Origin: Akanthomyces muscarius | Lineage: Eukaryota > Ascomycota > Sordariomycetes > Hypocreales > Cordycipitaceae | Assembly (NCBI RefSeq): GCF_028009165.1 | Contig: NC_079243.1 | Span: forward strand, 2,356,001-2,420,000 | Direction of reading: 5' to 3' | DNA length: 64,000 bases | Shown: one piece after another, positions 5,131-48,832 of the stretch | Layout: every line of letters starts with the position of its first letter | How positions within the stretch are numbered: the stretch's first letter is position 1 | The notes under the pieces: generated by a model | Told to the model about the DNA's origin: nothing | What the model saw: only the letters and a program-made list of their open reading frames with translations | Databases searched by the model: none | Translations under genes and position numbers: made by a program

Positions 5131-5817
5131 GGTTTGAGCGAGGAGGGCAGGGGTGGGTGTGTGACGGCAAACGGTCCTTCGGACTTCGGCTAACTTGAAA
5201 CGACAGAGGTGAGTGTGTCAGAACGGGCGTCTGGTCAGCAGTCCCCTTTCGTTTTAAATATTAACAAAAAGGCCGCAAAGTACGGAGTTACATGCCAAGG
5301 AAGTGGCGTGACACTTTTTTTGCAACAAGAGAGGGGGAAAATGGGTGGCGGTTAGGAGGGCCCTTTCGGTTCCGGTCGCGACCCCAAAGCCTCGGGGCAG
5401 GTGATTCTGGGTGGAGACCGTTAGCTCTCGCTGATTGATAAGATTAGATCAGGCGGTTGCAGCTGCCACCCTACACTCGGGTAGAGGCGGACAACGTTGG
5501 CAGGGACTGGGGCGTTGCGCGGCTTTGGCGCGGTATTTAATGAGTATTTGGGTGGACCTGCAGCAAGTATTCAATTTTTGCTATGGCTGTCAGGTGGCTT
5601 TCTTCGCCAATAGCGTCGTCGTTGACTGCTGCAATATTGTGGTCGGTAATACTGCTTCGGACTCGCGGTCGGCCTCCGACGCTCGACAGATTGGAAGCTC
5701 TACACCGGTCTTTAAGCATCGAAGGGATTGGGTTCGGAGCGAAGAAGATTGGTACAGCATTTCTATCGAACATCAAAACAGTGATATATAGTATATACAT
5801 TTGGGACAATTTTTCAG
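5131..5817. other. Intergenic between CREG-like gene and RID pseudogene
   Basis: This holds the promoter of the CREG-like gene and the 3' flank of the methyltransferase. A short open frame at 5435-5791 on the plus strand has no recognisable content and no signal peptide. Nothing else is seen. Confidence 0.5.
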
Positions 5818-19874: not shown

Positions 19875-22800
19875 ATGATGGCTCGCGCCTCACACCCTTT
19901 CCGCCTTCTGGCAGGCCTCGCGCGCAAGAACACTGTCAATCACATCGTCAGACACCCCATCAGCTTCTTACTGACCTTCTATGTTATTCCAATCGTCATT
20001 TTGTCCCTCCTCTTATCTCTGCCGAAGCTGTTATCCATCAAGCAAGCCTCTGGTGCGGCAGACCCAGCCCCAATCAAGTCACTTGCAGACACGGTGCAGC
20101 AAAAACTCGTCGTTGTCCGCCCGACCGACCTGGGCAGCGATGTGCAGAGAGTCATTGACAGCTTTACCAAGTCAATCAACCCCGACAAGATTCAAATCGT
20201 AAAGAGCGACAATGAGCTGTTCGACACCTGCAGCGCGAAAAACGGGGAACAAGGACCTTGTCAAGCCGCCGTTAGCTTTTACGACTCGCCCGAGACCACC
20301 TCGTCCGAAAACCATACTTGGCAGTACATCATTCGGTCCGACATACCCAAAGCCAGCACCAATGACTATCTAAGCCACAAGGGTCCGGTGGATGATGTGC
20401 TCCTGCCGCTTCAGCTGGCCATCAACAATGCGATTACAAACTCGACCATCATTCCCGAAACGTTCATGTTTTCCCGGACAAAGGCCAGCACCGACGCAGC
20501 AACAAAGAAGGACGCCACGACTCTCATCGGAAGCGTCTTTACATTTGCAATCTTCGCCTGCTTCTTCATCATGATCTACAAGTTTACCTCCTGGATCACT
20601 CAAGACCGAGACTCGGGAATGTCGCGGCTGATGGACAGCATGGGGGGTACATGGTGCTTACCTCTGCGGGTTCTGAGCTGGATCATCGTCATTGACCTAG
20701 CGTGTCTACCACTTTTCATCGTCTTTGGTGTTTTATATGCAAAGCTGGCTTTCCCGGCCTCCGATGTGATGCCGCTGATTGGCTGGCAGATCCTGCTGGG
20801 GTTTGCGATCAACAGTTCCTCAACTTTCGCGGCCGCCTTCTTCAGCAAAGCCCGCGTGTCTTCCATTTACATCACCGCCATGTTCATCATACTTTCCCTA
20901 ACGATGCAGCTGATTGGGGTCCGCAGCAATCCCCAGCCCATGCCGGATACGATTTGGGCATTGTCTGGAGCCTTCCCCAGCTGTAATCATGCCTTGTTCA
21001 CCAAGCAAATGGCATTCTGGCAGCTCGCCGAGAAGAAGGCCTCCTTTTCGGACTTTCCACCTGGAGCCCCAGACGACCTCTTGGATTTGGCTGTTGTAAA
21101 GCAAAAGACGCTTCTTCTTCTCCTAGCCGGACAGGCAGTGGGCTATGCGCTACTCGCTATGGCGGTGGAATGGCTTTTCCATGGAGTGAGCGGCCGAAGC
21201 AGAACATTCCGACGAGACGTGGGAAATCTGAACGAGGCTTCTATCAAGGTTGAAAACTTGAAAAAGGTCTTCAAGCCAGGTTTCTGGAAGTGGCTCTGCT
21301 GCTGCGGCAGACGAGGTTACAAGACTGCTGTCAAAAGTGTCACTTTTGAAGCCTACGCGGACCAAATTCTATGCCTCGCGGGCCCCAACGGGTCCGGCAA
21401 AACAACCACATTGCACGCAGTTGCTGGCTTCAGCCAACCAAGCGCTGGGCGCATCACACTGAGTGCCAGACGGAAAGAGATCGGCATATGCCCACAGCAA
21501 AACACGCTGTGGGATGATTTGACAGTGCTGGACCACGTCCGTCTCTGGTCCCAAATCAAGGGTGGTCATGAGACGCACGCCGAGATTGATGAGCTCATCA
21601 CCGCTTGCGATCTTGCAAAGAAGAGGAGCAGCCCTTCAAAGTCTCTCAGCGGCGGCCAGAAGCGTAAGCTTCAGCTTGCCTGCATGTTTGTGGGCGGTTC
21701 CAAGATTTGCCTCATTGACGAGTGCACGTCGGGCCTTGACCCCCTGTCCCGTCGCGCCATCTGGGCCTTGCTTCTGCGGTATAGAACCGGACGCACCATC
21801 ATATTTACAACACATTTTCTTGACGAGGTCGACGTCCTGGCAGACCAGATTGTCGTCTTGACGGACGGAGGTGTTAAATGCCAGGGCTCTCCAGCAGAGC
21901 TTAACAGCCAATACGGAAGCGGTTACAAGGTCATAGTGCCTGACGACGGGCTACAGCCCGTCATGGACTCGCCCTGGCAATCCAACACCCACCAAGGACA
22001 GCTTGTATGCACCGTGCCCGACTCTCTTACTGCGACGCGGCTCGCGCGGGTGTACGTCGAGAATGGGGTTACTGACATTTCCATCTCCGGCTCACAATTC
22101 GAAGATGTCTTTCTCAACCTTGTGGAAAAGCCCGAGAGGGTGCAGAGCAGCAGCAGCAACAGCAACCTTTTGACAGACAAAATGGGCTTTGCGCTCTCGC
22201 CGGCTCGCACCACGTCCTTTGCACAGCAACTCCGCATCCTGCTAGGGAAGCGATTCCTGGTACTCCCCAAGCTTTGGTGGCCGTACTTTTTTGCCATACT
22301 GATACCATTGGGCGCGGCGCTGGCAATGGTCATTATAAGCGGCAGCTACGATGTCCCCTCGTGTGCAGACACGAAGCCGGTGCTCGGTACACCGGAGCAG
22401 GAAACATTCTTCTTTACAGACTTTTGCGCCCGGGAGGGGTTCTGCACGCAGATAGTCCTGGCTCCCTCGGAAGCGAAGACGAAGCTAAAGGGGCTTGTCG
22501 AGAAACCGTTCGAGGACGTGCGCGATGTCAACATGACGGTGTTTGACCAGTTTGTGGTTCCTTTGGAAAATCGCCAGAGCTGGCTCGACTATGTCCTGAA
22601 CAACAGAGACGCCAAGTCATACACAGGCATCTACACTGGCTCTGACAGCGATGCGCCCATTATTGCGTACCGGCCACCATCGGATTCGAGGATAGGCAGC
22701 TTCGAGACGCTGAATCTTTGGAGCGAAATGAACAGCAACGTTCAGATCAAAGCCAGCTTTAGCAAGATTCAAACTGTCAAATCGGTGTGTACAGCGCTTT

Positions 22801-24640
22801 CCTGACACTAAGCGGCGACCATCAAGACTAACTTCATCATAGCAAGATCATACCGTTGCGATCATGTACGCCATATTCTTGACGCTTGTCCTGTCGATAT
22901 TTCCGCCAGCATTTGTCCTGTATCCAGCGATCGAAAAGGCAAGCAATACTCGATCGATGCAATACGCAAACGGTGTGAGCCCCGGGCCTTTGATATTGTC
23001 GTACCTCTTGTTTGATGCGATTTTCATCACGGTCATTTCTATCGCCCTGGCGCCTATCATTAGTGGCCCGATCCAGGCGTGGGTTGGTTCTGGCGCCTTG
23101 CTCGGTGTCGCACTGGTCTTGTACGGCCTGGCCGCCGTTCTCGTCGGCCATATCGTGTCTCATTTTACCGCTGGACCACTCAAAGCATTCATCGCAGCTT
23201 TTGGTGTCAACTTGGTCATGTTTGCGGTTTCTGCTGGTGCATATGGTGTAAGTGCACAACTTGGCTCTGACATAAAACGCGGCGCTTTACTGATAAAGAT
23301 AATAGGCTTCGACAATGTCATCAGAAAAGACAGCGAGGGCTGTTGCATTTGGCTTCGGGCTAATCTCGCCGATCGGAAACATTTTTAGAATCATGATGAT
23401 TGGGCTGAATGTCGCCAACCAAGGCTGCACCAATTACAACAACAAGCCCTCCTCCGCTATCGACGGCTACTCTGGCCCGATTCTCTATCTACTACTTCAA
23501 GTCATTGCGCTATCTGTGTTGGCGATTTGGCTCGAGGGCGGTTTGTCGCTCTTCCGCAAAGACATTCCTACTTCCGCGGACACGGATATTGAAATGCGTG
23601 AGCCGTGCATGCCCGGCAGCGGTGTGGCAGCAGAGGTTCTGCGCACAGAGCACGAGAAAGGCGATATGCTGCGGGCAGTGCACGTCACGAAGGCGTTCAA
23701 ATCAAATGTTGCTTTGGACGATGTTACTTTTGGGCTCCCACTTGGCCAAGTGCTTGCCCTTATTGGACCTAACGGCGCAGGTAAATCCACTCTTGTCAAT
23801 GTTATCCAGGGAGAACTTGCTGCCGACAAAGGCGGGGTGATGCTGTGCGGAGATAATTCAAGAAATGCTTCCTCAAAGAAGCACATTGGCGTGTGTCCCC
23901 AGCACGACTCCTTGGACCTTCTCACCACACGTCAGCACCTCGCGTTCTACGCCAAGATACGTGGTGTCCAGGACCCCAACAGCAATGTCGACTACCTTCT
24001 CAGGAGGCTCGACCTCGAGCCTCACGCGAAAACGGCGGCCGCCAAGCTGTCGGGCGGCAACAAGAGAAAGCTCAGCCTAGCAATTGCGCTGATGGGCACG
24101 CCGCCCGTACTTGTGTTGGACGAGCCCACGACAGCTATGGATGCTGTTGCCAAGCGTGTCTTCTGGGATATCATCAAAAAGGTCACCGCAGACCGTTCCA
24201 TTCTTCTCACGACACACAGCATGGAAGAAGCCGACGCGCTGGCGAACCGTGCGGTCATTCTGGCCACCAAAGTGCTCGACATTGGCACCACCCAGGATCT
24301 GCGCACCAGGTACGGGACCCAGAGTCACATCACCGTGCAGCTCACGTCGGCACCGCACACATCCGAGGATGAGATGCAGCGGGTATGGGCGCGCATACAG
24401 GAAGGTGTGCCGAGCGCGGCGCTGGAACGAGACATGAGCCGCGGCCAGATTCGCTTCACCGTGCCTCTGAAAGGGCAAGGCGGTGCGGGAAGCAGCAGTC
24501 TTACGGTGATTACAGTCACTGAGCTTCTTGAATACTCGAAGCAAGAACTGGGCATTGCACATTATAACGTGGGCAGCGCAACTCTGGAAGGGGCGTTTTT
24601 GAACATTATCCAGGCCAACAACTTCCAAGAGGATGCTTGA
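19875..24640 (+). CDS. Full-size ABCA-type ABC transporter
   Basis: Three exons (19875-22784, 22843-23247, 23306-24640) with two 58-nt introns ending in TAG give 1549 residues in the order TMD1-NBD1-TMD2-NBD2. TM segments include FLLTFYVIPIVILSLLLSLP near the N-terminus and WWPYFFAILIPLGAALAMVI at the start of TMD2, each followed by a large extracytoplasmic loop, as in the ABCA family. NBD1 (around residue 502) has Walker A GPNGSGKTT, signature LSGGQKRKLQLA and Walker B ICLIDECTSGLDP, where Cys replaces the usual Pro after the catalytic Glu. NBD2 (around 1257) has GPNGAGKST, LSGGNKRKLSLA and VLVLDEPTTAMD. ABCA proteins usually move lipids; the substrate here is unknown. The gene borders the peptide cluster and may or may not belong to it. 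Confidence 0.92.
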
Positions 24641-24832: not shown

Positions 24833-25843
24833 CTAACAATGTTTCAACAACCTGTCAATCATTTCATCTACATGATCAAGAAAGATGGAGATGTGGCCCT
24901 GGCCCTCGAGAAGACGAACCTGTGCCGTACCGGCAGGAAGATGCTGCGCAATCCATTTTCCATGCGCAAAGGGCACCATCTTGTCGTCACTGCCTTGGTA
25001 GAGCAGTACATGCGTTTTGTTTTCGCCCACGTCAAACCCCCAAGGCTGCAGAAAGGCAAGGTCGTCGTCGATCCAGCCGTCGCAGTTTACCTGCAGTCCC
25101 TCGCGGAAACTCTGGGACAGGTAGTTGCCGAAATCTGGGTCGCGCAAAATGACCGCCTTGTCGACCTCGGGCAGGTTCGAGGCCATGGCAGTCATTATGC
25201 TCTGCGCATCGCCCATCATGTCGGGTCGCTCGGCTTCGCAGAATTCGCGCAGCTTGGCTTCGCCTTGCAGCGCTGCGTGGAATTCTTGCAGGTCTGGTAG
25301 TGACTGTCAGAGGAGAAGAAAAACAGGACGAGGAACCTTTTTCCAGGCAGTCTGCAAAAACCTACTTCCTTCGCCCTGACCGCTGAGAAAATCCAAGTCA
25401 TCGGCGTCCGAAGGCCCAACGCTGGCAATTAAAAGCGCGGCCAGACAGCCTGGTAGTCGTGCTGCGCAAGCAAGCGCATGTGGTCCTGCAAATGAACAAG
25501 TCAGTTTGAGAGCGAAAGTTGCACATCATTTTCTCCTTGACCTACCGCCGCCACTCCAGCCCGCCACAAGACATTTGCTAATGCTGAGATGCTGCGTGAG
25601 CTGTTTAATGTCGTCGACGACGTCCGCTACCCGACGCCCTTTTTGTCTTGTGGAACCGCCATAGCCAGCTCTGTCTATTGTGATCAGCTTTACACCTCTG
25701 CTTTTGCATTTGGCTTCGAAGACCGGGAGCACCGCCTTGTTCCCCGGAGTGCCGTGGAGGAAGATTAACGGGATGCCATCGGTCGCCGCTGAGACGCTGT
25801 AAGATAGTTGCCGTCCGTCTGTGAGGCGGAATACCTGGTCCAT
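24833..25843 (-). CDS. Alpha/beta hydrolase
   Basis: Three exons (25546-25843, 25366-25485, 24833-25293) with GTAGGT...CAG introns give 292 residues. The oxyanion-hole motif is FLHGTPGNK and the nucleophile elbow is GWSGGGP, completed across the first intron (exon 1 ends after GWSGG plus one base). The acid is probably in LLYQGSDDKMVP and the His in LEGQGHIS. The order and spacing fit a canonical serine hydrolase. No signal peptide is seen, so it is probably cytosolic. It lies 427 nt from the 3' end of the repeat-peptide precursor gene, in the same direction, and could act on the peptide or on an ester formed in the pathway. This link is by position only. Confidence 0.85.
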
Positions 25844-26270
25844 TGTTACGAGCTGAATGCGGTTTGTCTGGTGTGTTTGGGCGTGAGGAGAGGGTCGTCA
25901 GGCGGGCAGTCCGATGATATATCTATATGGGCGATCAGGCTATGCAACATTACTAATGCAACCCAAGGCGAGCGAACTAACCATCCACAACAGGGTGACT
26001 GGAGACCCCCAATTTCCTGTGGCCGAGGTTTATATGCCAAATTCTCATTACGAATAAACAGGAGCGAACAAACGTGTAGATTGAGAATGAATGGCAAGTT
26101 TTGATGTCAATTTCAGCGTCGCCCATGCCAAGTATCTGTATGCTACCGTACAAGTCCAAGTATCCCCCATCCTTTGCACTCTCAGAGGGTCAAGTCAACG
26201 AAAATTTCGATAAAGTTTGGAGCCTCGTGGACTCATAAGAATTGTAATACTAACAGTATGCAAGAGTTCT
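25844..26270. other. Intergenic between hydrolase and peptide precursor
   Basis: This is the promoter side of the hydrolase and the 3' flank of the precursor. No gene, tRNA or repeat is seen. Confidence 0.5.
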
Positions 26271-26639
26271 TTAGTCGGTGACCTCGCCAGCAGGGTGGGT
26301 GTATTCGATAGCACGCTTGTCGGTCACGCCGCCGGCTTGGTGCGTGTACTCAATAGCACGCTTGTCTGTCACGCCTCCAGCTGGGTGAGTGTACTCGATG
26401 GCACGTTTATCAGTGACACTGCCAGCAGGATGAGTGTACTCGATGGCGCGCTTGTTGGTGACACCTCCGGCAGGGTGGGTGTACTCGATGGCACGTTTAT
26501 CAGTGACACCGCCGGCTGGGTGAGTGTACTCGATGGCACGTTTATCAGTGACACCGCCGGCTGGGTGAGTGTACTCGATCGGAGACGCTGCTCCAAGAGT
26601 AACCAGGATGGCTGTGCAGATAAGGCGATTGATTTGCAT
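26271..26639 (-). CDS. Secreted repeat precursor of a dikaritin-type RiPP
   Basis: A single exon of 122 residues. The signal peptide (MQINRLICTAILVTLGAASP) is followed directly by seven copies of a 12-residue unit, IEYTHPAGGVTD, separated by Lys-Arg-Ala. The six Lys-Arg pairs are classic Kex2 sites; cleavage would release peptides beginning with Ala-Ile. Variation is confined to the centre and end of the unit: Pro to Gln in copy 6, Gly to Ser in copy 4, Gly to Glu in copy 7, and Asp to Asn in copy 3. The Ile-Glu-Tyr-Thr-His part is invariant. This architecture matches precursors of ustiloxin, asperipin-2a and epichloecyclins, which are cyclised by UstYa-type oxidases; such a gene is the next one. 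The exact core and the crosslink cannot be read from DNA. A non-cyclised Kex2-processed repeat protein is the alternative. Confidence 0.88.
   Translation of the reverse strand: MQINRLICTAILVTLGAASPIEYTHPAGGVTDKRAIEYTHPAGGVTDKRAIEYTHPAGGVTNKRAIEYTHPAGSVTDKRAIEYTHPAGGVTDKRAIEYTHQAGGVTDKRAIEYTHPAGEVTD
26274..26579 (-). repeat. 45-nt tandem repeats coding the RiPP cores
   Basis: Seven tandem units (six of 45 nt and a final 36 nt) encode the repeated peptide. Two adjacent units, 26481-26525 and 26526-26570, are identical at the DNA level, which suggests recent duplication or gene conversion. Confidence 0.9.
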
Positions 26640-27092
26640 CTTTATTGTTGAAATGGAGGTATTGGTTAGCTGATTTACTTATGTGATAAAACAACATCTG
26701 TCAAGTCGGGCGGCGTACTCTATATACTGGCACAGCGGCAAGCAATACAGCGTGTTACGATGGCATATGCAGTAGTAGCCTCGCCCGTCGAAAAGCCGAA
26801 TATTGCAGTATACCTGGCCTTGGACTCCTCAGCCGTCAAGTAATATGCATGCATATGCAAATGTATTCGGTACTAGGCGTGGCTGTCAAGTCATCTCACC
26901 CGTCATCTCACCCGCCAGCCTTGCGCCCCGACGGCCAGGCGTATCATCTCACACAGTGGAGCATCACATCTTGCAGAATAGCAACATCCTGAGCTGCGCT
27001 TGGACTGCTATTGCTAATCACTTGCCTTAATACTAGCAGTTTCGCAAGTTGGCGGCTCTGTGTCCTCAATCAACAAGCGCTATCCCTCCGAG
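26640..27092. other. Divergent promoter of precursor and UstYa-like gene
   Basis: A 453-nt region between the two divergently transcribed core genes of the cluster. It is a likely shared regulatory region for the cluster bZIP protein. I could not identify a palindromic binding site with confidence. Confidence 0.55.
26721..26726 (-). promoter_or_regulatory. TATA box of the precursor gene
   Basis: TATATA lies about 82 nt upstream of the precursor ATG (26639), the only such element in the divergent promoter at a suitable distance. Confidence 0.45.
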
Positions 27093-28075
27093 ATGCCATA
27101 CTCAAAAATGGAAAAGGTCGATATAGAAGACCCGTTTGAGAGCCACGGGCTCTTAGGACAGAATGACCTCATCGCCTGTAAAGGAGCAGAAATCGCGACC
27201 AAAGTGCGGCGACGGATCTTTTGGGTACTGTCCGTGGGCAATGTGATCTTATTCCTCGTTTCGATTTTCATGGTCTCTTTTTCCTGGAAAACTCGGCGCT
27301 TTGTGTTTAGAAACGGGGGGAACGTATTACTGAAGGAGATCGACGCATATTGTAAGTAGCTCGTCATGCAGACACCGCGCGCCACTGACACGCCCTCTTC
27401 TTAGCACCCGTATATGACCAAGTACAAGTCCCTCTCGTCGATGCCACCATCAACGGCTCGCTTCTGAACCGCGAGTCTTCCATATATCGCCAGCCCCCAT
27501 CTTTCGAAGTAGACGCGGCATGGGAGCGTATCACGCACCAGTTCCCCCACGCCATCAGCTCCAAAGACGTGAGGCGCCTCGGTAAAGACCCCAGCAAGAC
27601 GGCCAAATGGCCAGAGGACTGGGGATTCGGCCCGGACGCCCACATTGCCGAACTCGACATTATCCACACGGTGCACTGTCTCAACGCCGTCCGGCGCGAC
27701 GTTCACTGGCGGCACTATTTTGCAGACCGGTACCCCGACGGCGACTTTCCAGAGCTGCACCGCGTGCACACTGATCACTGCATCTACATTATTCTGCAAA
27801 ACCTAATGTGCAGCGCAAATGGAGACGTCATTACCAATGTCTGGGTGGAGGGGCAGTCGCACCCGTTTCCGGACTTCAACGTGCACAAAAAGTGCCGTGA
27901 TTACGAGACATTTGTGGATTGGCACCATAAGACGCAGATTACGGACATGGAAGGATATGAGAAGATGAGGGCGCCCGAAAGAGCATTTAAGTGGCCAATG
28001 TCGCAAGAGTTTCACGATTTGTTCCAGACTGGCCTGACGGGGGGGAGCATCAAAGATGCATCTCTCTTAGACTAG
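27093..28075 (+). CDS. UstYa-like (DUF3328) RiPP oxidase
   Basis: Two exons, 27093-27351 and 27405-28075, with a 53-nt intron (GTAAGT...TAG) give 309 residues. A short N-terminal cytoplasmic part is followed by one membrane segment (IFWVLSVGNVILFLVSIFMV), then a lumenal domain with two HxxHC motifs, HTVHC and HTDHC, about 40 residues apart. These define the UstYa/DUF3328 family. In ustiloxin and asperipin biosynthesis these proteins carry out oxidative macrocyclisation of the precursor, probably as copper or other metal enzymes in the secretory pathway. The gene is divergent from the precursor gene. The start is the first ATG (MPYSKMEKVDIEDPF); the frame upstream has no ATG. Only one family member is seen, as in the asperipin cluster; ustiloxin has two. 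Confidence 0.92.
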
Positions 28076-28127
28076 TTGGCAACTTCATTTCTTAAATTTT
28101 TATGCAAGAGAGAATTCCTTTTGGCAC

Positions 28128-28990
28128 TCACCCTCCCTCTCCTCTCTCTGCTGTTCCTTGCATATCTTGTGCACCTCTACCTGAACGATTAATCAGCTCT
28201 TCCACCGCGTCCAAATGCGCGGGCACGCCACTTTCCTGCTGCAGCAGCTCCAGCTCCACGCCCAGACTGTAGAGTTTTCTGAGCTCCTGCACCATTCCGC
28301 AGGCTTTGGAAACAATTTTGGTATGCGCAGAATTTGTTCTGTCGGGCACCGGCGGCACCGTTGAGGACTTGCCAGATCCAGGACGCGATCTTGACATGTC
28401 CATCCTCGCTGCTAAGGACGGAGCTGTTGCCAAACTGGCGCTTTGACATGGACTGGCAGGCGACAGTGGCATCTCCACTGGCGGAATATTACTGCTCGTC
28501 GAGACGCCGGGCGTGCAAGTCCAGGAAATGTCCCCAAAGTCCATGTTGACGCCAAGGCTGGCCTGTCTGGCCTGAGAGTTCGCCTGCAGCGTCCCAGAGT
28601 AGTTTCCGTAATTGACACCCTAGGCACATTGTTCCAATTAGCGACCGTAATCTTTAACACTGTCATTGCAGCGAATCGCTTCGGATTACAAGGGGCAGTC
28701 AGCTCACCAGTCCATCTCCACAGTTCTGGGACTCGTCCGCTCTACTATACTCGCAATGAGAAGACTCGAAGGAACCTCGCTCCGGGCCGGAAAGCAGCTG
28801 CATGCCAAAAGCACCGCAGTGTATATCGTCGTCGTCGGAGCCGCCGTGTTTTTTCTTCTTTCGCATCTTTTGCCCTTGAATTGAAGAATTAGTCGCGTGA
28901 AAATTTCACGGTCAAAGGCCTTGATTTACTATATCGTCTTTGAGCCTCTCGATTTTGGCTTTTGCGCCTATCCTCATACGCACTGCCCAT
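28128..28990 (-). CDS. Cluster-linked bZIP transcription factor
   Basis: Three exons: 28930-28990 (20 codons plus one base), 28708-28874 and 28128-28619, giving 239 residues. The introns are 55 nt (GTAAAT...AAG) and 88 nt (GTGAGC...TAG). Exon 1 plus the start of exon 2 build a textbook basic region, DRRKSQNREAQRRYRQKMRK, split after the second Tyr-Arg step. An in-frame TAA just upstream makes 28990 the only reasonable start. The middle is low-complexity. The C-terminal half has a probable helix (MVQELRKLYSLGVELELLQQ) like the end region of many pathway regulators. A long leucine zipper is not obvious. It converges with the UstYa-like gene (52 nt apart), so it is the likely pathway regulator. 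The first exons are too short to be seen by length alone. Confidence 0.75.
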
Positions 28991-29794
28991 TATCGCGGTC
29001 GACTGGATACTCCATTACTATTCATGGCCTTCTTTTGGCCCCCGCGGCGAGTTTATGCTTCTATAAGTAATCTCACATTCTGAGAGGATTCAACATGTCG
29101 CCATGCCACAGCCTGATTCACTTCTCAGACCGGCAGCTGCACTGCTGCCGCCGACACCAGTGGAATCCATTGCATCGCGCTAGCCCATAAATGCGGATAA
29201 TGTGCCGCTAGTGGAACCGTTTCGCCGCTAATAAATTAAGATCTCAATCGGCTGCCGAGATATTACTAACATCCCGGCAGCTGGCAGTTCCGCAGCGCAA
29301 GGCACGAGGCTCTGCGAAGTCGGTAGCTCAGGAAGTCGTTCGGGGACGGCACTTGTTCGCTTTTTCGGCATGTTCACATTTCGAGAACGGAATCAGGCTG
29401 TCGGGAGTGGACATGGCTTTCACATCATTGCACATAACTCGTTCGATTACGCCATCTGCAGCATGTTTGCTCGGGGGACTTTTGTAAAACGAGGCTACGG
29501 GGCCCTTGATGGCTTTACAGCTGGGAACCCTGATGACTTGTATTTATTGATAGATGAATAGGCACCCGAGTAAGCTTACCAGCGCGGGGCCCCGGAGACG
29601 TTTGGAAAATGCAACTCCGTACATCAACTTACTGGAGCCCGCATGAGCTGACTTTTACAACTCCAATGCTATAGGCGATACCCAGAGCTGAAAGTGTGCA
29701 TGTCCACCACTAGAAGTGACCGGCATTTACTCAATTCGTTTTTCATAATCTATTACCGATGTGATTGTGCCAAAGTCTGAAAAAGAGATACACC
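28991..29794. other. Divergent intergenic region, bZIP and ABCC genes
   Basis: About 800 nt between the starts of the bZIP and ABCC genes. A 63-codon plus-strand frame at 29370-29561 has no recognisable content. Probably promoter sequence. Confidence 0.5.
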
Positions 29795-32700
29795 ATGAGC
29801 CAACCGTGCGGCTCACCGAACGACTCCAGTTTCGGTCCGTCTGTCAACTCTTGCTACAGAAGCTTCGATTTCACCCTCTTTTTCGAGGACACAATCTTGT
29901 CGCTGGTTCCTTCTTCCATATTCATACCAATCGCATCTTTTTACATTGCCATTCTCGTAAAAACGAAGCCCGTTGCAATTCGTACAACATGGTACATAAT
30001 GAAACTGGTATATCTCCTAATGCAGCGTGTTGATCCAAATGCTTACTCGGGGTAAGATCGCCTATGCGGCGCTAGCCGTCACGTATTGGATATTTCTAAT
30101 CGCCATTACGCGTGATTCTGCAAATGCCACAGCCGCCGGTATTCCTGCCGCCGCTCTTGCTCTGGTATCAAGTATACTGCTGGCTATTCTTGCTGCCTTG
30201 GAGCACACCAAGGCACTCGCGCCGTCGCCAGCACCCATCTTCTTCATTTCCGTCACTGCGCTCCTAGACATCGCAAGAGTGCGCACACTGTTTTTGACAG
30301 GACAACCCTTCCCCGCAGCTACGCTGTGTGTTGGTCTGGTTCTGAAATTACTACTGCTGGTGTTCGAAAGCCGAAGCAAGAAGAACGGCCTTGCCGCACT
30401 ACCGTCGCAGACGAGCCCGGAGAAACTGGCAGGTCCGATGAGTCGAACAATGTTCCACTGGATTAATCCACTGCTCATACTAGGATTCAAGGGGTCGCTG
30501 AAAGGGCATTGCTTAGGTCCAATTGACCCCAAGTTTGATGCCGAATACTTGACCGAAAGATTTGCTGCCGTTCCACAAAGTGTCAAAGATGGACTTTCCG
30601 AGGGTGGGCTTAGCACTCTCACTCTGACATGTATCAGGCAGGATCTATTGTACCCTATCATTCCTCGACTTTTTGTTTCCCTCTTTACGTTTCTGCAGCC
30701 ATTTCTCATCGACTCCATGTTGAGCTGGCTCACCAAAAGTAACCGCGGCGCCTCAAATCAGGGATACGGCTTAATTGTAGCGACGTTTTTCGTGTACTTT
30801 GGCATCGCAGTATGTAGCACTCTTTTCAGTGCGAAGTACTCTGACGCTAACAATATTTGACCAGGCCTCCTATAGTTGGTACTGGCACCAGGTCAACAGA
30901 TCAGTCACCATGATTCGTGGCGGCCTCGTGGTGGTTCTCTTTGACAAGCTCCTGCGCCTTGCCGAAATCCCGAGTGTCGAGTCACAGGCAATGACACTCA
31001 TGTTTAGCGACACCCAGCGGGTCATGACCGCCATGAATTACTTCCACGAGCTCTGGGCCGGTGTCTTTGATACTGCAATAGCTACGTGGCTTCTGTATCG
31101 CAAGACGGGGGCGGCGAGCTTTGCAATGCTCGCAGTCACGATAGGTATTTTCGAAGCCCGCCTCGCCTCGGAGCTGTAGATTTTCGGCTGACCCAGGAAA
31201 ATGTAGTGTCGTCGATTGCTTGCGCGAGCCTTTCCAAGAAATTGAGCGGAATGCAGCAGCAATGGTTGGCGGCCGTGGAACAAAGACTTGGGCCGACAAA
31301 ACGCATGCTGTCGTCTCTCAAGGCAGTGAAAATGCTGTCGGCGGACGATCGGATTTCGAGCACCATCACAGCCCTGCGCCGCGCCGAGCTGGCTGCCGCC
31401 TGGCCTTTCCGGAGGCTTCGCATCTTCACGACTGCCATATGTAAGTACTTGCACAAAGCGAGTCGAGGCCTTCAATGACGAACCGCAGGACAGCTTACAG
31501 CACCATTACCCTGTCGCCACCGCTGGTCTTCGGGGTGTACATCGCACTCGCCTCCGACGACCACGGGCTAGATGTTTCAAGACTTTTCACGTCTCTCTCG
31601 CTCATCAATCTGCTAGCGACGCCTGTGATGCATCTCTGCCAAGCCATTCCAGTACTTGGAGCGGCGCATGGCTGCATGGCGCGCATTCAGAGCTTTCTAG
31701 AGCTCGAAGAGCAAAGCGATAGAAGAACCACAATAGCTCCATCGCAAAGCTTAGAAACGGAAGCTAGGAATATTTTCTCAGTGAGAAATGTGTCTCTAGG
31801 ATGGACGGCTGGAAAGCCCATCCTCCACAACATCAATTTCGACGTCAAGCGCGGGTCGCGAGTCGCCATTCTGGGACGCATTGGCTCTGGGAAATCACTT
31901 CTCCTCAAGGGTTTGCTGAGTGAGGTAGAAGAGATTTCAGGGGTTATTTCCGTCGCTGAGGGCGCATCCTTTGCGTACTGCAGCCAGACCCCGTGGCTGG
32001 AGAACGCATCGGCAGAAGAAAATTGGACTGGACGCTGCGCATCGAGAACCCCCGCCGTTCTTGGGAAGATGGCTCAAGACTACGCTCTGAAGGATATTCA
32101 AAATCTTCAAGATTACAAAACAGGGACGATTGGTAGCCAAGGTGTGAAACTCAGTGGTGGGCAGCGACATAGGCTGGTAAGTCCGATGTATGTCTGGCAA
32201 CACCTCCACTTCTGACTATGATGCCAGGCACTTGCACGAGCGCTCTCTCTCGATAGAGATATTGTCCTACTGGATGATGTCTTCAGTGCCTTGGATCGTC
32301 GCACAAAGATCCACGTAGCGGAAAGCTTATTGCGGAGGGCGCGAGAGGGAGAAAATACGAACACTGTCATCTTCAGCACCCATGACGGTATGAATGTGTC
32401 TCGGCCTGCTTTTGAAAATCTACTTCTGACCAAGTGCAAGAGTACATTGCCAACATGGCAGATGAAATATACGAGATAGATCGATCAGGCACAGTTATCC
32501 GACGCAGCAAGGTGGACTTGCCCGCAGGCACCTCGCCAGCAGACAGCGCCTCGTCGATAGAGGCCGAGGAAGAAGTCTCCACGGCGGAGCAATCTCAAAC
32601 CTCCTCTTCGATTTCTATTTTACCTCTTACGGCTGACCCCACGGTAAAAGACATGGATGTGTACAAGACATACCTGCGCTCCATGGGACTCGGTAACGCT

Positions 32701-34574
32701 GTGGCGTTTCTGTTTTTGGGAAGCGCGTTTGCGGTCGCGTTCAAGTTTCCAGGCAAGATATGATGCTTCCTCGAGATCTCTCCGACGCTAATTATGGTGT
32801 AGACCTTTGGATTCAGTGGTGGTCCAATGACACCTCCTCGAGCAGTAGCAGACATTCTACCGGGTACTGGATCGGGTTATATGCTGGCCTGCAGTGCATC
32901 CCGCTGCTGCTGCTAGGACTTTGGCTGTGGTAATTGGTTCCTACAAAATTCCTGTTATCCAAGATTTCAACTTACTCACAACCAAGCAGGCACGTATTTT
33001 ACATCATTGTTCCTACAGTGGGCATCTCCATCCACACCAACCTTCTCACCACCGTCATGAACGCGCCCTTCTCCCACATCAGCAACGTTGACTCTGGCAG
33101 CATCATGAACCGTTTCAACCAGGACCTCATGTTCATCGACTCGCTCCTGCCCTTTGATCTCTTCAACACCGTCGCCGAGCTCTACATTGCCGTCATCCAG
33201 ATTGTCTTTGTGGCCGTCGCCAGCGCGCAGGCGCTCGCGGCCGTGCCCGCGGTCGCGGCCGTCCTGTACGCGATTCAGAATCTCTACCTGCGGACCTCGA
33301 AGCAGCTGCGGATCCTGGAGCTCGAGGCGAAAGCCGTCCTGCATAGCCTCGTGTCGGACGTGACGGCCGGCGCCGGCCCGTCGACAATTCGCGCGCACGG
33401 ATGGCAAGGACACCTGCGCGCACGCTTCATGGAGAGCCTGGACGTCTCCCAGGAGCCCATCTACCTGCTCTTTTGCGTGCAGCGCTGGCTGCAACTCGTG
33501 CTCAACCTAGTCGTCATGGGCCTCGTGGTGCTGGTCGCGGTTGTCGCCGTGGCGCTGCGCGCAAAGGTCAACCCCGGCGCCGTCGGCGTCGCGTTCCTCA
33601 ACGCCACTACGCTGGGCGAGACGCTGACCCAACTCGTCATCTCGTATACTTCACTAGAAACCTCCCTGGGCGCTATTGCGAGAACGACGATTTTTGCCGC
33701 GACTACCCCGAGTGAGCTTGGCGGCAACGCTGACGACAGCGGCGGCGAGCCCTCGTCTTGGTGGCCGTCGGAAGGGAGTGTTCGCATGGACAATCTTTGG
33801 GCCAGGTACCAGTTGCCCGCTGCTACAACTCAAGAAGAAGAATCATGGAGCTTGCGAAGCATAAGCATCGAGATACCGGCCGGCCAAAAGGTTAGTATCT
33901 GCGGTCGCACAGGCTCTGGCAAGTCAACCTTTATCCTGGCTCTGCTTCGCATGGTCGACATCCCGATCGGCACGGCCTACATTGGCGGGCGCGACCACTC
34001 CCAGATTCCCCTCGCAGCACTACGGCGAGGGTATTTTGTCGTGTCTCAGGATCTGCTGGAAGAATCCACCATACTGCGGGATCAAATCGACCCGGACAGG
34101 CAGTTTACAGACGAGCAGATCCACGAGGCCGTAGCAGAATGCGGTCTACAAGAGATCGTCGAGACTAGCGGGGGGCTTCGTGCCAGTGCTGGGGACGTGC
34201 AGCTCTCGAATGGCGAGGCGCAGTTTCTCTCGCTCGCCAGGGTGATCTTGTATGGATCTCCAAGGGAAGGCGGCATCCTGCTTCTCGACGAGGCCACGAG
34301 CAGGTGCGTACTGGACGATGTTTTCGCATTTTAGCCAACTAACAGCTAGTATAGTCTTGATGAGGATGCGCAGCGCCGGATGGAGATGCTGATAGAATCA
34401 AGGTTCCAAGACAAGACAATCATATCGGTCTGTCACAGACTTTCCTGGGCACTCAAGTCTGATAGAATCATTGTCCTGGAGAACGGGGAGGTCATACATG
34501 ACGGGACGCCGCAGGAAATTGTCAAGGTTTCATCATTGTTCGCCGGTATGCCGCTGCCAGAATCTGAGCAGTGA
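29795..34574 (+). CDS. ABCC (MRP)-type ABC transporter
   Basis: Ten exons give 1431 residues: 29795-30007, 30057-30809, 30865-31144, 31207-31440, 31494-32176, 32228-32387, 32441-32752, 32803-32929, 32990-34303, 34355-34574. All phases agree. The intron after 32752 begins with GC (GCAAGA...TAG), and the introns before 30057 and 32441 end in AAG. The protein has an N-terminal TMD0-like region, then TMD1 (MSRTMFHWINPLLILGFKGS), NBD1 near residue 620 (GRIGSGKS, LSGGQRHRLALARAL, IVLLDDVFSALD), TMD2 (GSIMNRFNQDLMFIDSLLPF) and NBD2 near 1225 (GRTGSGKST, LLLDEATSSLDED). The NBD2 signature is LSNGEAQFLSLAR, with Asn-Gly in place of Gly-Gly/Gly-Gln. ABCC pumps export conjugates and secondary metabolites; here the likely role is peptide export or self-protection. 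Confidence 0.9.
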
Positions 34575-34677
34575 GCCGAACTCTAGTTACATTCCGCTTA
34601 TGTGGGATATTCTTGTTTTCTGTTGTTGTTCTTCTTCTGCTTTGCACTCTGCTGGTTCTCCATCTCCGCGGCTCCAT

Positions 34678-35589
34678 TCACACTTGCTGTCGCTCAAGAA
34701 CCGCCCACGCCACATCCATAGTAGTGACCCGTTCGCCGACATATTCCAGCTGCTCCATAGCTTGTTCGATCTGCGGAACAAAAGCCAACACACTCTCTTC
34801 CTGCGCATTGGAGAATCCCTGTGATAGGACACCCTCTTGGAAGCTCCGTGATGTAACAATCTTGGCCTCCCAGTATCCGTCGCGCATCGCCTCTGGCGGG
34901 CTGACAACCCCCCGGCGGGCCACTGACCAGCCAGCGCTTTGCGCAAGCTTCAAGAGCTCCTCCATCTCCAAGGCACCGCGAATGTTGGGCTCACCAGGCT
35001 TCATACCGCCAGCGTCTTGCTTCTTGAGAGCGTGCAGGCGCATCTGCGCGCGAGCGGCGAGCTGATGCGGACGCTGCTCCAGCGCATCGTTTTCGAAGGT
35101 ATATTCCGCAAGAAACACCCGCACGAATCTAGCCTTGACGAGCGCGGCGAACTGAGATCGAATCAGGTCGCGGGTCGAAAAGTACCACAAGCTGTGGCAG
35201 AAAACAGCCGCGTCAAACGAATGATATGCGTCACTGTCCAGAAAATCGGGCAGATTGTCTCGCACAAAGCTGACGCGTCCCCCAAGAGAGGACGCTTTCA
35301 AGTAGTCTTGGGACTGCTGCAGTGTAAACGGCGCGCCGTAGGACGGCTCAGCGGGATCTAGCCCGGTGACATGGCCACTCTTGCCTACAAAATATGCCAA
35401 CACGGCAGTTGACTCGCCCTGTCCGCAGCCAACATCAAGGACCTGTAACGGGGTTTTATCGCCGACTCCCCAGGCACGGCAGAGTTCTATGCGATGGGAA
35501 AAGGTGCTGTCCAGGGTCTTGTCCCTGTCACTGCCCTGGTGAAGGAAGGAAGCAGACAATGTATCGAGAATCGCTTCGTTGGCGGACAT
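34678..35589 (-). CDS. SAM-dependent methyltransferase
   Basis: A single exon of 303 residues from MSANEAILDTL; the frame extends 26 codons further upstream to another Met, but the upstream part is hydrophobic and Cys-rich and looks like leader sequence. Motif I is VLDVGCGQGES at residues 50-60, the acidic end of strand 2 is HVTGLDPAEP, and motif IV-like FDAAVFCHSLWYF follows. These mark a class I methyltransferase. The C-terminal half (AARAQMRLHALKKQDAGGMK, then a helical tail) is typical of fungal small-molecule methyltransferases. It ends 103 nt from the convergent ABCC gene and starts next to the MFS gene. It could methylate the peptide product (N-terminus, His or Tyr), but the substrate is not known. 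Confidence 0.85.
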   Translation of the reverse strand: MSANEAILDTLSASFLHQGSDRDKTLDSTFSHRIELCRAWGVGDKTPLQVLDVGCGQGESTAVLAYFVGKSGHVTGLDPAEPSYGAPFTLQQSQDYLKASSLGGRVSFVRDNLPDFLDSDAYHSFDAAVFCHSLWYFSTRDLIRSQFAALVKARFVRVFLAEYTFENDALEQRPHQLAARAQMRLHALKKQDAGGMKPGEPNIRGALEMEELLKLAQSAGWSVARRGVVSPPEAMRDGYWEAKIVTSRSFQEGVLSQGFSNAQEESVLAFVPQIEQAMEQLEYVGERVTTMDVAWAVLERQQV

Positions 35590-35690
35590 GCTGGGAGTGG
35601 CTTTGGCACAGCGTATTGAAAACGCATTTGCAAGTAAATGCCAAATGCAAGAAACAGAAGGTGTCACTCTTTTGCCTCAGCCGAAGACTG

Positions 35691-36140
35691 CTAGGCTTCA
35701 GAGCCGGGCATGACAGTGGCAAGCCTGGGTGGCGAGGCGCTGGGTCCAGAGAATTCGGGGACCGGCACTGAGCTGAATGCGCCTCGTAGCCCGATGATAG
35801 CTGCAGTGAGCTCACTTTGCAGAATAAGCTGATCTCCGCAATCCTTCATGAAATCAGGCTGTGTGTCACGTTTGCCCTCGGCTTTGCCTGGTATGTCTCG
35901 CCAGAAAAGGAAATTGAGAACCTTGATGATTGATTGCGGCACGTACACCTGGAAGATGCCCAAAAAAAGGCTGTGAATATCGAACAAAAGAACAAAGGTC
36001 CCCAGCACTGCGGCATTGACACTGTACCATGTGTAAAACCACCCCAGAATAGACAAAGCAACAGTGAGTCTGCGCTGTATTACCAGCGCACCAGAAAATG
36101 GCAATCGATAGCTCTGCAGAGGAGCCGCTTCTGGCGGCAA
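35691..36140 (-). CDS. Possible small membrane protein, overlaps MFS start
   Basis: A 149-codon open frame with one or two hydrophobic segments (LTVALSILGWFYTWYSVNAA, VLGTFVLLFDIHSLFLGIF) followed by a hydrophilic tail. It fills most of the promoter between the methyltransferase and the MFS gene, and its first 43 nt overlap the MFS first exon on the other strand. The composition is protein-like, but I do not recognise the family. The true start may be internal or on another exon. It may simply be a chance frame. Confidence 0.3.
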   Translation of the reverse strand: MPPEAAPLQSYRLPFSGALVIQRRLTVALSILGWFYTWYSVNAAVLGTFVLLFDIHSLFLGIFQVYVPQSIIKVLNFLFWRDIPGKAEGKRDTQPDFMKDCGDQLILQSELTAAIIGLRGAFSSVPVPEFSGPSASPPRLATVMPGSEA

Positions 36141-37753
36141 ATGCGCAGGACCAGCAGCCCGACGACGACGACGCGCGCTCCAGCAAGTCCAAGATCAACA
36201 CCAAAGCAGTCGCTCTCATCTTCCTCTTCGTTTTGGTGTCAGATATCGGGTATTTTATCAGCATCGCCCCCTTGACGCGTATCTACGAGGACATAACCTG
36301 CCGACGGTACTTCCAGGAGTCGGGGCAGACGCTCTTCCTCAATGGCACCAGCGGGCGTCCTGACGAGGCGCAGTGCAAGATACCAGAGGTCCAGGGACCT
36401 GTGGCCGAGTTGTTTGGCTATCAAACGTTCCTCGACTCGCTGGTAGGGATTTTTCTGGGGCTGTACTTTGGAGCGCTGGCGGACAGGGTTGGACGACGAC
36501 CCATCTTTACTATCGGTACCGTGGGCGCGTTTCTGTCGTCTTGCTGGACATTATATGTCTGTAGGTATCACTTGGGTAAAGTTCTTACCTAAAGCCTCTT
36601 CTCTAACGCTGCAGTAGGCTGGATGGAGTTTCCGCTGCGTTATGTGTGGTTCTCGTCCACGTTTCTCATACTGGGCGGCGGGAGCACCGTGGTGAATGCC
36701 TGCCTGACCATGATCCTCACAGACGCCACGCCGGCGGCATCAAGGTCGAGGGTGTTTCTTTACTTTACAGCGTCGAATTTAGGATCCGAGGTCGTTGCGC
36801 CTCCAATTGCGTCGTACTTTATCGACAGCAACCCGTGGGTGCCGCTCGTGATTGGGCTTTGCTGTACTGGTTTGACAGTATCTATCGCTGCCAGTGTACC
36901 AGAGACGTTGTCACCGAAAAGAAAATCGGCAGAGGCTATCGATAACCCGGACGGCCCTACTGAGGAGGATGTGCTACACCCGACAGAGGTGCCTGCAAAG
37001 GACAGCCCGTTCAAGGCGACGATCAAGCATACGCTACAGTCGCTCAACTATATCAAGAGCCAGCACGCATTGTTTCGTTTGGTCTGTGTCTTCATGATCT
37101 CAGACTTTGCCAGGCAGTCGATGCTGTTCTTGGTGCAGTACGTGTCTGTCCGATACCGGTTGACTCTTGGACAGGTAAGTGTCGCCGCTGTTCTGTGCTT
37201 TGCGCTTGGCTTACCTGGCGCCAGGCAAACTATTTACTCTCGTGGAGAGCAACGGCAGCCATAATATTAAACACAACAGTCTTGCCTGCGACAGACAAGT
37301 TGCTGCAGGTCAAGTTTCACATACCGCCTCGAAAGAAAGACTTGATTTTGGCCCGCATGTCGATTTGTTTTTTCACCGCTGGCTTTCTCGCGTTGGCGTT
37401 GGCGCCGACTGTGGCGATTGTCATCTTTGGTAGGTTGACGTCGCAAAGCGTCCAAACCTGCTCAAGTCTGACAGCGTGGGATAGGAATCGGCCTCTACAC
37501 TCTCGGAGGGGCATTTGGCACCTTTATGCGGTCCATGATAAGCACCATGGTAGAGCCGCACAGGCTGGGAAGCATATACAGCACACTGTCCATAATGGAT
37601 ACAGCCGGGGCGTTGGTCGCCGGTCCGATTCTCGCCCAGGCGCTGAAATGGAGCATCAGCTTTGGTCATGGCTGGAGCGGACTGCCGTACCTGTTTGCTT
37701 CAGTTCTCTGTGGAGCGGGCACTGTAGTTTTGTTTCTAGCAAAGCCCTGCTAA
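36098..37753 (+). CDS. Major facilitator superfamily transporter
   Basis: Four exons (36098-36560, 36615-37174, 37225-37429, 37485-37753) with 50-55 nt introns give 498 residues. After a hydrophilic acidic N-terminus comes TM1 (AVALIFLFVLVSDIGYFIS), then the MFS motif A between TM2 and TM3 (GALADRVGRRPIF). A long central loop between TM6 and TM7 is acidic (DGPTEEDVLHP). The C-terminal half has further TM segments (SICFFTAGFLALALAPTVAI, DTAGALVAGPIL). The pattern fits a 12-TM proton-coupled exporter of the type often found in fungal metabolite clusters. As the rightmost gene of the probable RiPP cluster, it may export the product. The start was chosen as the first Met before TM1. Confidence 0.88.
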
Positions 37754-45466: not shown

Positions 45467-48400
45467 ATGACTGCCCACAAGTCTTGGACGGTCCACGTTC
45501 AAAACCACCCCGGATCGACCAAAGAGGAGATTGCCAACGAACCTAACTGGGGTGCCGGGCACCAACACCGTGTCGGTTTCCGCAACAAGGGGAATCGAGT
45601 CCCGGGACTTGCGCACGATGGGGATTACTCCGAAGAAGTTAGAAACGCACGCGTGCTGAGAAAAGAGCTGCGGGACGAGGAAACCTGTGGTCAGTTAGTC
45701 AATTTTCGTGATATAATTGAGCACGAGCCGGTGAGTCGCGGGCTTGACGCAGAGCAGGAAATGCGCTAACTGAGACTAGGATTTGCATCTCCGGTATCCC
45801 GAGAACAGGTCGTTGGGCTGGCGATATGTCATCGACACCACCGAGGATTGGGTAAAAAACAAGCAGAAATGGCCGGCGAACATTGAACGCGAGAAGAAGC
45901 AAGAGAGGGAAAGGGTAGAAAAGGAATCGAAGCAAGAACACGAATGGCGCCGCGATTCAGACAACGTCAAGCACCACGACGCGTACGCCACAGGGGAGGT
46001 GGAAGAAAAGGAGGTTAATGACGAAAAAAGGGCAAACGGCGAGCGAAATGGGGACGCCGAGAAAGAATCTGAAGTACAACGTTTAGAGCGGCTGTACTCT
46101 CCCCAAGAACTTACACTCTTGCGTGGTCTCCAGCATGAAAGAAAGTACATGTCAAATCTGAAAGAAAACGACGGCAAGGGCACATCGCCCCAGCGCCACA
46201 ATCGAACGCAAATCTCGATAGACGAGCAGGATCAGTTCAGCCCGGACAACTGGATCCCTCGATCTGCGCATCTCACGCGCATCACCGGAAAGCACCCTCT
46301 GAATGCCGAACCAAAGCTCGACGACCTATACGCCGGCGGGCTCATCACACCAAACGAACTTCACTATGTCCGCAATCACGGCGCTGTGCCGCGACTCCTC
46401 TGGGAGTCTCACGAGTTGGAGGTCGAGTACAGCGGCCAAAAACACACCTTTACCATGCCGCATCTAGAGAGCTTCGAGGCCGTCAATATCCCCGTCGCGC
46501 TTGCGTGCGACGGCAATCGCCGCAAGGAGCTCAACATGATCAAGCGGAGCAAAGGCTTCGGCTGGGGGCCCGGCGCCATCAGCTGCGCCTACTGGAAGGG
46601 GCCCCTGCTGCGGGACGTCCTGCTCGACGCCCGCGTCCCGGAGGTGCTGCCGGGCATGAGGACCAAGCGATACTGGGTCAACTTTGAGGGCGCCGACGAG
46701 CTGAGCGACGGTGCGTACGCGACGTGCCTCCCGTTTGAGTATGTCATGGATCCGCACAACGACGTACTCCTCGCCCACAAGATGAACGACCTCCCGCTGC
46801 CGCCGGACCACGGGTACCCGGTGCGTCTGATTGTGCCGGGCTACGTCGGCGGCAGGAACGTCAAGTGGCTGCGGCGGATCTGGATCAGCGAGGAAGAAAA
46901 CGACTCGCACTACCACATCTGGGACAACCGCGTCCTGCCGGCCTTTGTCACGGAGATGGACGGTCCCTTTGCCGACACGCTGTTCCGCCACCCCGACACG
47001 GCCTGCAACGAGCAGAACCTCAACTCTGTCATCGTCAAGCCCGCCCAGGGCGAGACCATGTCGCTGGCCAAAATGTCCCGCGGTGGGAGCTATCGCGTGC
47101 AGGGGTTTGCCTACGACGGGGGCGGCCACCAGGTACAGCGCGTCGAGGTTTCGCTCGACGACGGCAGGACTTGGCTCTACTGCATCCGGACGTTCCCCGA
47201 GGCGCCAATTCGCCATGGCAACAAGTACTGGGCGTGGATTCACTGGCACGTCGACATCAAGCTGCAGCATCTCCTGAGGGCAAGCAGCATCACGGTGCGG
47301 TGCTTCAACGTGTTTAAGAATACGCAGCCCAAAGACTACAACTGGAACATCATGGGCATGATGAACAATGCTTGGTATTCTGTCAGGCCAGAGGTTGCGC
47401 AGGACGAAAAGTCGGGAGAGGCGCAGATCTTGTTCCGCCATCCTGTTGAGCCGGGTCAGGGCACGGGGGGCTGGATGAAGCCGAGCGTGGAGAATCAGAT
47501 TGCAGAGGCGAAGCAGGAGGCAGGGGCGCCGACAAAGGAATTTACCAGAGAAGAGATTGAGAAACACGCTACGCAGGACGATTGCTGGATTGTGGTGGAC
47601 GGTAAAGTATATGATGCGACGAGCGTGCTGGAGTGGCATCCGGGCGGAGCGGCTGCGATCCTGTCTCATGCTGGTGCCGTGCATCAGGAGACGACGGACG
47701 AGTTTGGCTCCATTCACGACGACTACGCATATGAGAAGCTCAAGGGTAAGCGCAGATCCGGACTTTGGATGACTTGTGCAGTAGTTGGGCAAGGCTAACG
47801 AAACCTGACAGAGTGCGCATTGGGTGTCCTCACGGAAAAGGCTGCCAATTACGTCAAGAAGAATACCGAGGCGGCGGCCAAGGACAAGGCCGAGACGTCA
47901 CAGGCCAAGGACAAAGTCGCGCTGCAGAGCCACCGATGGATCCCTGTGACGCTGGCCGAGCGCAAGGATATATCCAAAGACTCGAGGACCTACACCTTTC
48001 AGCTGCCCAAGGGCCAGCCCATGCTGGGCCTGGGCACCTGCCAGCACATTCTGCTAGGATGCCACTTCAAAGACCGCATGCTGATACGCAGCTACACGCC
48101 CACCCGACCACTATGCCCGCCTAGCGACGACGGCAGGCGTCTCACCAACGCCGCGGGCAAGGCACTCGAAGACGGCAGCGGCACCTTTGACCTCACCGTC
48201 AAGACGTACTTGCCCGACAAGCGGCAGCCCGGCGGCGCCATGTCCACCATTCTCGACTGCATCCCGCTCGGCGAGGAGGTCGAGGTCCGGGGGCCGACCG
48301 GCGACATCATCTACCACGCCGGCGGCGTCTTCACCATCGAGGGCCAGCGGCGCACTTTTAAGCGCGTGTCGCTCGTGCTCGGCGGGTCGGGCATCACGCC

Positions 48401-48832
48401 CGGCTACGCGCTCATCGCGCGCATCGCCATGGCGGCCGACGACAAGACGGAGATTCGCGTCATTGACGCGAACAAGACGGAAAAGGACATACTGATGCGC
48501 GGCGAGCTGGACGAGTTTGAGAACAAGCTACAGGGGCAGCTGAAGATGGCGCATGTGCTGAGCCATGCCGGTGAGGAGTGGGATGGGCTGAGGGGCCATG
48601 TGGACGAGGAGATGATCAGGGAGACTCTGTTTCCGCCCGAGGAGGACTCCGTGGTTTTCTTGTGTGGGCCGCCGGCGATGATTCAAAAGGCAGCTCTGCC
48701 GGCGCTGAAATGTGAGTTTTTTTCTGGCTGCGAGTTTTGACTGTTTTGAAAGTGTGTGATTGTGGTTTGCTAACGAGAGGTTGGTCGGTAGCGTGGGGTT
48801 ATGTCGAGGATGACAACATGTTTGGATTTTAA
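45467..48832 (+). CDS. niaD: Assimilatory nitrate reductase [NAD(P)H]
   Basis: Four exons (45467-45730, 45780-47745, 47812-48711, 48792-48832) give 1056 residues. Domains in order: a conserved N-terminus (NFRDIIEHEPDLHLRYPENR, GWRYVIDTTEDWVKN); a Lys/Glu-rich insertion (about residues 122-190); the molybdopterin domain with the Mo-ligand Cys in ALACDGNRRKE; the dimerisation domain (MMNNAWYSVRPE); a cytochrome b5 domain with heme ligand motif WHPGG near residue 707; and the FAD/NAD(P)H reductase module (MLIRSYTPT, LVLGGSGITPG, VFLCGPPAMIQ), ending in the typical GYVEDDNMFGF. It reduces nitrate to nitrite in the cytosol. The last exon is only 13 codons. It is longer than Aspergillus NiaD (about 870 residues) because of the N-terminal extension and the insertion. 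No nitrite reductase or transporter gene is adjacent. Confidence 0.95.

Follow-up and report, generated by a model that had tools for sequence, protein, structure and literature searches.

A compact candidate dikaritin-type gene cluster with a single UstYa-family oxidase and an invariant IEYTH repeat in Akanthomyces muscarius

Can one repeat-bearing precursor and one UstYa-family oxidase, encoded in a locus that has no tyrosinase gene, be enough to make a cyclic peptide? This question is raised by seven adjacent genes that span ~13 kb (24833-37753) between an ABCA-like transporter gene and MED12 in a 64-kb stretch of Akanthomyces muscarius DNA, hereafter the window (positions 2356001-2420000 of contig NC_079243.1, termed C3, in a genome of 36.2 Mb and 12 contigs). 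Judging from the sequence, these genes probably form a compact dikaritin-type cluster for a ribosomally synthesized and post-translationally modified peptide (RiPP), with a pared-down layout like that of asperipin (a single UstYa and no tyrosinase) and a predicted cyclic peptide as the product. Papers are cited below by PMC accession, for statements made in excerpts of their text.

The precursor gene (26271-26639, minus strand) lies in an open frame that extends from 26271 to 26678, and translation from the ATG at 26639 yields 122 residues. The N-terminus is hydrophobic in a hydropathy plot (12-residue value of 2.4 from residue 6), which marks a predicted signal region. Beyond it are seven units of (A)IEYTHPAGGVTD and six Lys-Arg (KR) sites. 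The first unit, IEYTHPAGGVTD, is followed by KR, and the other six conform to AIEYTH(P/Q)AG(G/S/E)VT(D/N) with KR between them and none after the last. Tandem Repeats Finder assigned a score of 359 to a 45-bp period and 420 to a 135-bp period. Because 45 bp correspond to 15 codons, the array stays in frame, and it exceeds chance. A scan for KR repeats produced no matches in five shuffled versions of the window (64 kb, mononucleotide shuffling), and on real sequence it also produced two low-complexity false matches (window 1540-1899 and locus L027).

Divergent from the precursor, across an intergenic stretch of 453 bp (26640-27092) that could possibly hold a shared promoter, is the gene for a UstYa/DUF3328 oxidase (27093-28075, plus strand; exons 27093-27351 and 27405-28075). 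Both frames are open and the exon-2 frame matches Pfam PF11807 with an E-value of 1.5e-44, which bears out the original prediction of a repeat precursor divergent from a DUF3328 gene. Exon 1 encodes a likely membrane anchor (hydropathy of 2.4 over 19 residues), and exon 2 carries two HxxHC motifs, HTVHC and HTDHC. All 71 proteins matched by UstYa in a protein search carry the UstYa domain. The 55 of these that were aligned all retain H90, C91, H121, H124, C125, C135, and C163, and almost all retain H87. An AlphaFold2 model of exon 2 (mean predicted local distance difference test score of 92.1) places the HxxHC motifs on two long helices, which matches the description of the DUF3328 protein CctR (PMC12435403). 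CctR is reported there to be a homodimer with a binuclear copper center at these motifs, and its domain is proposed to face the lumen of an organelle. Because the two proteins belong to the same family, the UstYa protein examined here likely works as a lumenal binuclear copper enzyme as well.

The repeat units themselves offer clues to the functional core. IEYTH is unchanged in all 12 units of two proteins, namely the seven present here and five in P0001, a relative from a second genome. G8 and T11 are also constant, whereas positions 6, 7, 9, 10, and 12 vary. Pairwise comparison of the seven units, which are not independent of one another, gave 32 synonymous and no non-synonymous differences in IEYTH, versus 80 synonymous and 29 non-synonymous differences in the flank PAGGVTD. 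Given this invariance and the contrast with the flank, the most parsimonious view would place the functional core inside IEYTH. This unit differs from the ustiloxin, phomopsin, and asperipin cores (YAIG, YVIP, and FYYTGY), in line with the earlier claim of a repeat core unlike YAIG and FYYTGY.

Protein searches with the precursor, UstYa, and the methyltransferase revealed that the set recurs in a second genome. P0001 (the sole precursor match among seven candidates), a UstYa protein of 93% identity, and a methyltransferase of 78% identity are all on 44,503-bp contigs of the second genome. The proxy for co-location in these comparisons was an identical longest-contig size in bp, read without genome context. 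The methyltransferase has 36 protein matches, one of which, from Beauveria bassiana, is named "Methyltransferase ustM." Eight of the 36 share an exact contig size with one of the 71 UstYa matches (8,817; 44,503; 119,742; 155,917; 452,416; 2,094,858; 6,308,608; and 8,311,064 bp), and shared contigs of megabase length are weak evidence of co-location alone. When only contigs of at least 20 kb are counted (n = 17), seven are shared. A UstYa-methyltransferase pair of Cordyceps javanica is three genes apart according to its locus tags (V2A60_000067 and V2A60_000070). Sister loci of B. bassiana and C. javanica (P0013/P0091 and P0016/P0090) likewise have same-size contigs and proteins 56-59% (UstYa) and 36% (methyltransferase) identical to those examined here, but no precursor was matched there in the protein search, and the contigs are megabase-long. 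By the contig-size proxy, such pairs occur in Cordyceps, Beauveria, Colletotrichum, and others, which suggests a sub-family that recurs and stands apart from the ustiloxin type. Among named UstYa relatives, the closest come from Beauveria asiatica (77% identical) and Cordyceps fumosorosea (63%).

Several observations weigh against the assignment of this locus to a conserved, ring-forming dikaritin pathway. The protein search found no precursor relative except P0001. Ten of the 17 methyltransferase matches on contigs of at least 20 kb share no UstYa contig size, and the B. asiatica UstYa contig (72,215 bp) has no counterpart of the same size among the 36 methyltransferase matches. Homogenization of repeats can lower both substitution counts without selection. 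Additional points concern how the class is defined. The current definition takes DUF3328 as the class-defining enzyme, with two HxxHC motifs and a repeat precursor (PMC12048977; PMC10512285), and the locus has both the PF11807 protein with its two motifs and the Kex2-separated repeats. The class also calls for a signal peptide on the precursor, where the hydrophobic N-terminus described above is a candidate, and for a core cyclized by the UstYa homolog, which is predicted here. An older five-gene definition includes a tyrosinase, multiple DUF3328 proteins, a methyltransferase, and transporters or peptidases (PMC12048977). The methyltransferase and transporters (ABC and MFS) are present, but none of the 13 genome matches to tyrosinase PF00264 is on contig C3, and only one of the 48 UstYa matches in the genome is inside the window, leaving no second DUF3328 protein. 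The tyrosinase search does work, because one PF00264 match falls in another UstYa locus, L025. The predicted dikaritin-type cluster, supported by its UstYa and repeat precursor and by their recurrence in a second genome, is thus a candidate under the current definition and only under that one. Finally, hydroxylation and halogenation are also known from DUF3328 proteins, which makes ring closure one of several possible reactions for this UstYa.

If the locus does encode a cyclic peptide, its biosynthesis might proceed as follows. The precursor would enter the endoplasmic reticulum through its hydrophobic N-terminus, as its hydropathy implies, and Kex2 would cut at every KR in the secretory pathway to release about seven peptides of 12-13 residues, as in known dikaritins. 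On each released peptide, membrane-anchored UstYa would then form an oxidative cross-link from the IEYTH tyrosine (Tyr3) to a neighboring side chain. If the Y-x-I arrangement in ustiloxin and phomopsin is a guide, that side chain would belong to residue i+2, here His5, with Ile1 or Thr4 as other candidates. Peptidases, perhaps including the hydrolase of the cluster, may trim the peptide to a core within IEYTH(P/Q), the methyltransferase may add a methyl group to the newly exposed N-terminus in the manner of PhomM, and the product would be a substrate of the two transporters. The most specific version of this scheme, in which a single UstYa acting without a tyrosinase closes a Tyr3-His5 ring, would define a cross-linked dikaritin chemotype with histidine in place of the ustiloxin/phomopsin isoleucine. 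We regard this version as speculative and rather unlikely in exactly that form.

The precursor could instead be an ordinary Kex2-processed repeat protein, giving rise to linear signal peptides and left untouched by the adjoining UstYa. Precedent is ample, since 78% of 7878 fungal repeat proteins lack a DUF3328 neighbor and many are linear (PMC7329392). However, the divergent pair recurs together with the methyltransferase on the 44,503-bp contigs of the second genome. Additionally, ascomycete alpha pheromone precursors carry a STE13 signature, in which XA or XP follows KR, together with a cysteine-pair or PYGxPxG peptide (PMC6339444). In contrast, each KR of this precursor is followed by AI, the units have no cysteine, and neither the STE13 signature, the cysteine pair, nor PYGxPxG was found in them. 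We therefore consider linear signal peptides to be improbable. A slim chance also attaches to the idea that UstYa modifies a residue of IEYTH by hydroxylation, desaturation, or halogenation without forming a ring. The related DUF3328 protein CctR acts as a hydroxylase (PMC12435403) and UstYa homologs of phomopsin biosynthesis also desaturate (PMC10512285), but the tyrosine needed by known ring closures is invariant here, and a single UstYa homolog is reported to close the rings of asperipin-2a (PMC6514808).

A different kind of doubt concerns the extent of the pathway, which might comprise only the precursor, UstYa, and methyltransferase, with the hydrolase, ABC, MFS, and bZIP-like genes as bystanders. 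The hydrolase and transporters come from large families, and so this smaller pathway is a possibility of some substance, though we doubt it. The genes in question fill the space from the ABCA-like gene to MED12 without interruption, and transporters are usual in dikaritin-type clusters (PMC6514808; PMC12048977).

The accessory genes of the favored seven-gene cluster vary in how clearly they can be recognized. The alpha/beta-hydrolase gene (24833-25843, minus strand; three exons with approximate junctions) encodes a GxSxG elbow, and its spliced model matches PF00561 at 1.3e-17. Because it also matches prolyl-aminopeptidase models below the cut-off, a trimming role is possible. The ABCC-like ABC transporter (29795-34574, plus strand; several exons, two PF00005 and one PF00664 match) and the MFS transporter (36098-37753, plus strand; several exons, PF07690 5.8e-11) are ordinary members of their families. 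Between them is the S-adenosylmethionine-dependent methyltransferase (34678-35589, minus strand; PF13649 3.1e-8), which we infer to be an N-methyltransferase. Its start is probably at 35589 rather than at the edge of the open frame, because its relatives start there. The bZIP-like gene (28128-28990, minus strand) was spliced by hand, and the model has no Pfam family at E <= 0.01. It is recognized by a basic-region motif, RRKSQNREAQRRYR, which we take to be the bZIP signature. Repeats or Pfam matches thus sustain six of the seven genes originally proposed, and the bZIP regulator is the weak member.

The same prediction held that core-gene neighbors give a clear boundary. This applies to the right side, where the MED12 frame begins at 39421 (PF09497, E 2e-29). 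On the left, the edge is not sharp, as the ABCA-like full transporter (19878-24640, plus strand) is directly adjacent and could belong to the cluster or simply neighbor it. Farther away in the window, successive plus-strand frames at 45780-48740 have molybdopterin oxidoreductase, cytochrome b5, and FAD/NAD-binding domains and resemble a nitrate reductase, and 5818-6687 (minus strand) encodes a C-5 cytosine DNA methylase domain (PF00145 5.5e-25).

The genome offers many loci for comparison, because its 48 UstYa matches represent the window plus 22 others, for which precursors were sought within stretches of ~10 kb. A KR-repeat precursor is present in nine of the 23 loci, and eight of the nine repeat units contain tyrosine. 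The exception is L014 (C4:3095400-3105399), whose precursor (6005-6313 of that stretch, plus strand) has four copies of EGWNDTHDRAG, with tryptophan and no tyrosine. Near it are a UstYa gene (4470-5324, minus strand) and a frame (755-3408, minus strand) that resembles an ABC transporter by eye. The precursor of L025 (C1:1210500-1220400, 3877-4485, plus strand) has the unit KSVEDYTIGPE with core YTIG, and UstYa and tyrosinase matches occur in the same stretch. With its E-D-Y-x-I unit and tyrosinase, L025 is, by these sequence features, the true ustiloxin/phomopsin-type locus of the genome. The remaining precursors, in coordinates of their own stretches, are those of L015 (3940-4602, minus strand; GDILYNNQAGWG), L017 (4704-5012, minus strand; two copies of NPDILYFMPVGWG), L023 (5068-5370, plus strand; three copies of KFGDISTLIETNY), L024 (6985-7548, plus strand; DADAATAYKAD), L030 (6442-6831, plus strand; DADAATAYVVD), and L031 (3031-3513, minus strand; EPYGAYGNV). 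Those of L017 and L023 emerged from a looser scan only. DILY and GWG are common to L015 and L017, and DADAATAY is common to L024 and L030, whose units resemble motif 3, DADAATXYV[A/V]D, of PMC6339444.

We claim no relation between the window unit and the other eight, because 184 to 4150 of 5000 shuffles scored equally high in these comparisons. Kinship with the L014 unit through IE...TH..AG was rejected on the same grounds (699 of 5000 shuffles as high). Two genome matches of the precursor were also discarded. One arises from the complementary strand of the precursor locus, and the other, at C3:272327 (L011), has five in-frame stops and is a minisatellite. Around this site, a minisatellite-like array with units around CCTCGAGTGCTCTGAAATCTATAAATA occupies about 1400-1780 of the L011 stretch. 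The window UstYa is no recent duplicate of the other UstYa genes, as judged from sequence identities to the 22 other loci that reach at most 36.8% in alignments of at least 100 residues (short ones reach 42%).

How new is this candidate? In a literature text search, which does not reach MIBiG and supplementary tables, the core letters matched three papers, whose titles mark all of them as unrelated, and the letters appear in no protein except P0001. To this extent the cluster can be called undescribed, as was originally proposed, but its kind is not rare, given the eight other UstYa loci with repeat precursors. The tyrosine-containing types G-5 and G-6 of PMC7329392, which have Cordyceps and Beauveria members, might include the IEYTH unit (the comparison did not extend to their logos and tables). 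Just five dikaritins were reported as of 2022 (PMC10512285). Because 22% of the 7878 repeat proteins have a DUF3328 neighbor (PMC7329392) and several such loci exist in this genome, the cluster is a clean new dikaritin-type candidate of a known kind rather than a surprise. Tyrosine occurs in 65.6% of repeat precursors with a DUF3328 neighbor versus 38.2% (PMC7329392), which speaks for the dikaritin-type reading of this tyrosine-bearing unit. What sets the locus apart is that IEYTH is invariant, that a histidine stands two positions after the tyrosine (i+2), and that the oxidase set is minimal. With a short cluster, five strictly conserved residues, and a single oxidase, the action of a lone UstYa is testable by one deletion and the synthetic peptide AIEYTHPAGGVTD.

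Comparison with known systems places these features in context. CctR, the cyclochlorotine hydroxylase, shares the DUF3328 family and the double HxxHC motif, but it hydroxylates a non-ribosomal peptide. The ustiloxin and phomopsin clusters share a Kex2-repeat precursor whose units each bear a single tyrosine, a UstYa-family enzyme, and, by likely role, a methyltransferase of the UstM/PhomM type. Unlike the present locus, they have Y-x-I cores rather than Y-T-H (12 of 12 units), a tyrosinase, and two or five UstYa proteins rather than one. Closest in layout is the asperipin-2a cluster of Aspergillus flavus (aprA, aprY, aprT, and aprR), which also has a repeat precursor, a single UstYa homolog, a transporter, and no tyrosinase (PMC6514808; PMC7329392). 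Its core is FYYTGY, in contrast to the IEYTH of IEYTHPAGGVTD, and it includes a reductase, for which there was no Pfam match among the genes scanned here, whereas the methyltransferase, hydrolase, and second transporter are present in the window. Because the ring closer reported for asperipin-2a is its single UstYa homolog (PMC6514808), the analogy suggests that the A. muscarius cluster most likely works in the same manner, with one UstYa being enough.

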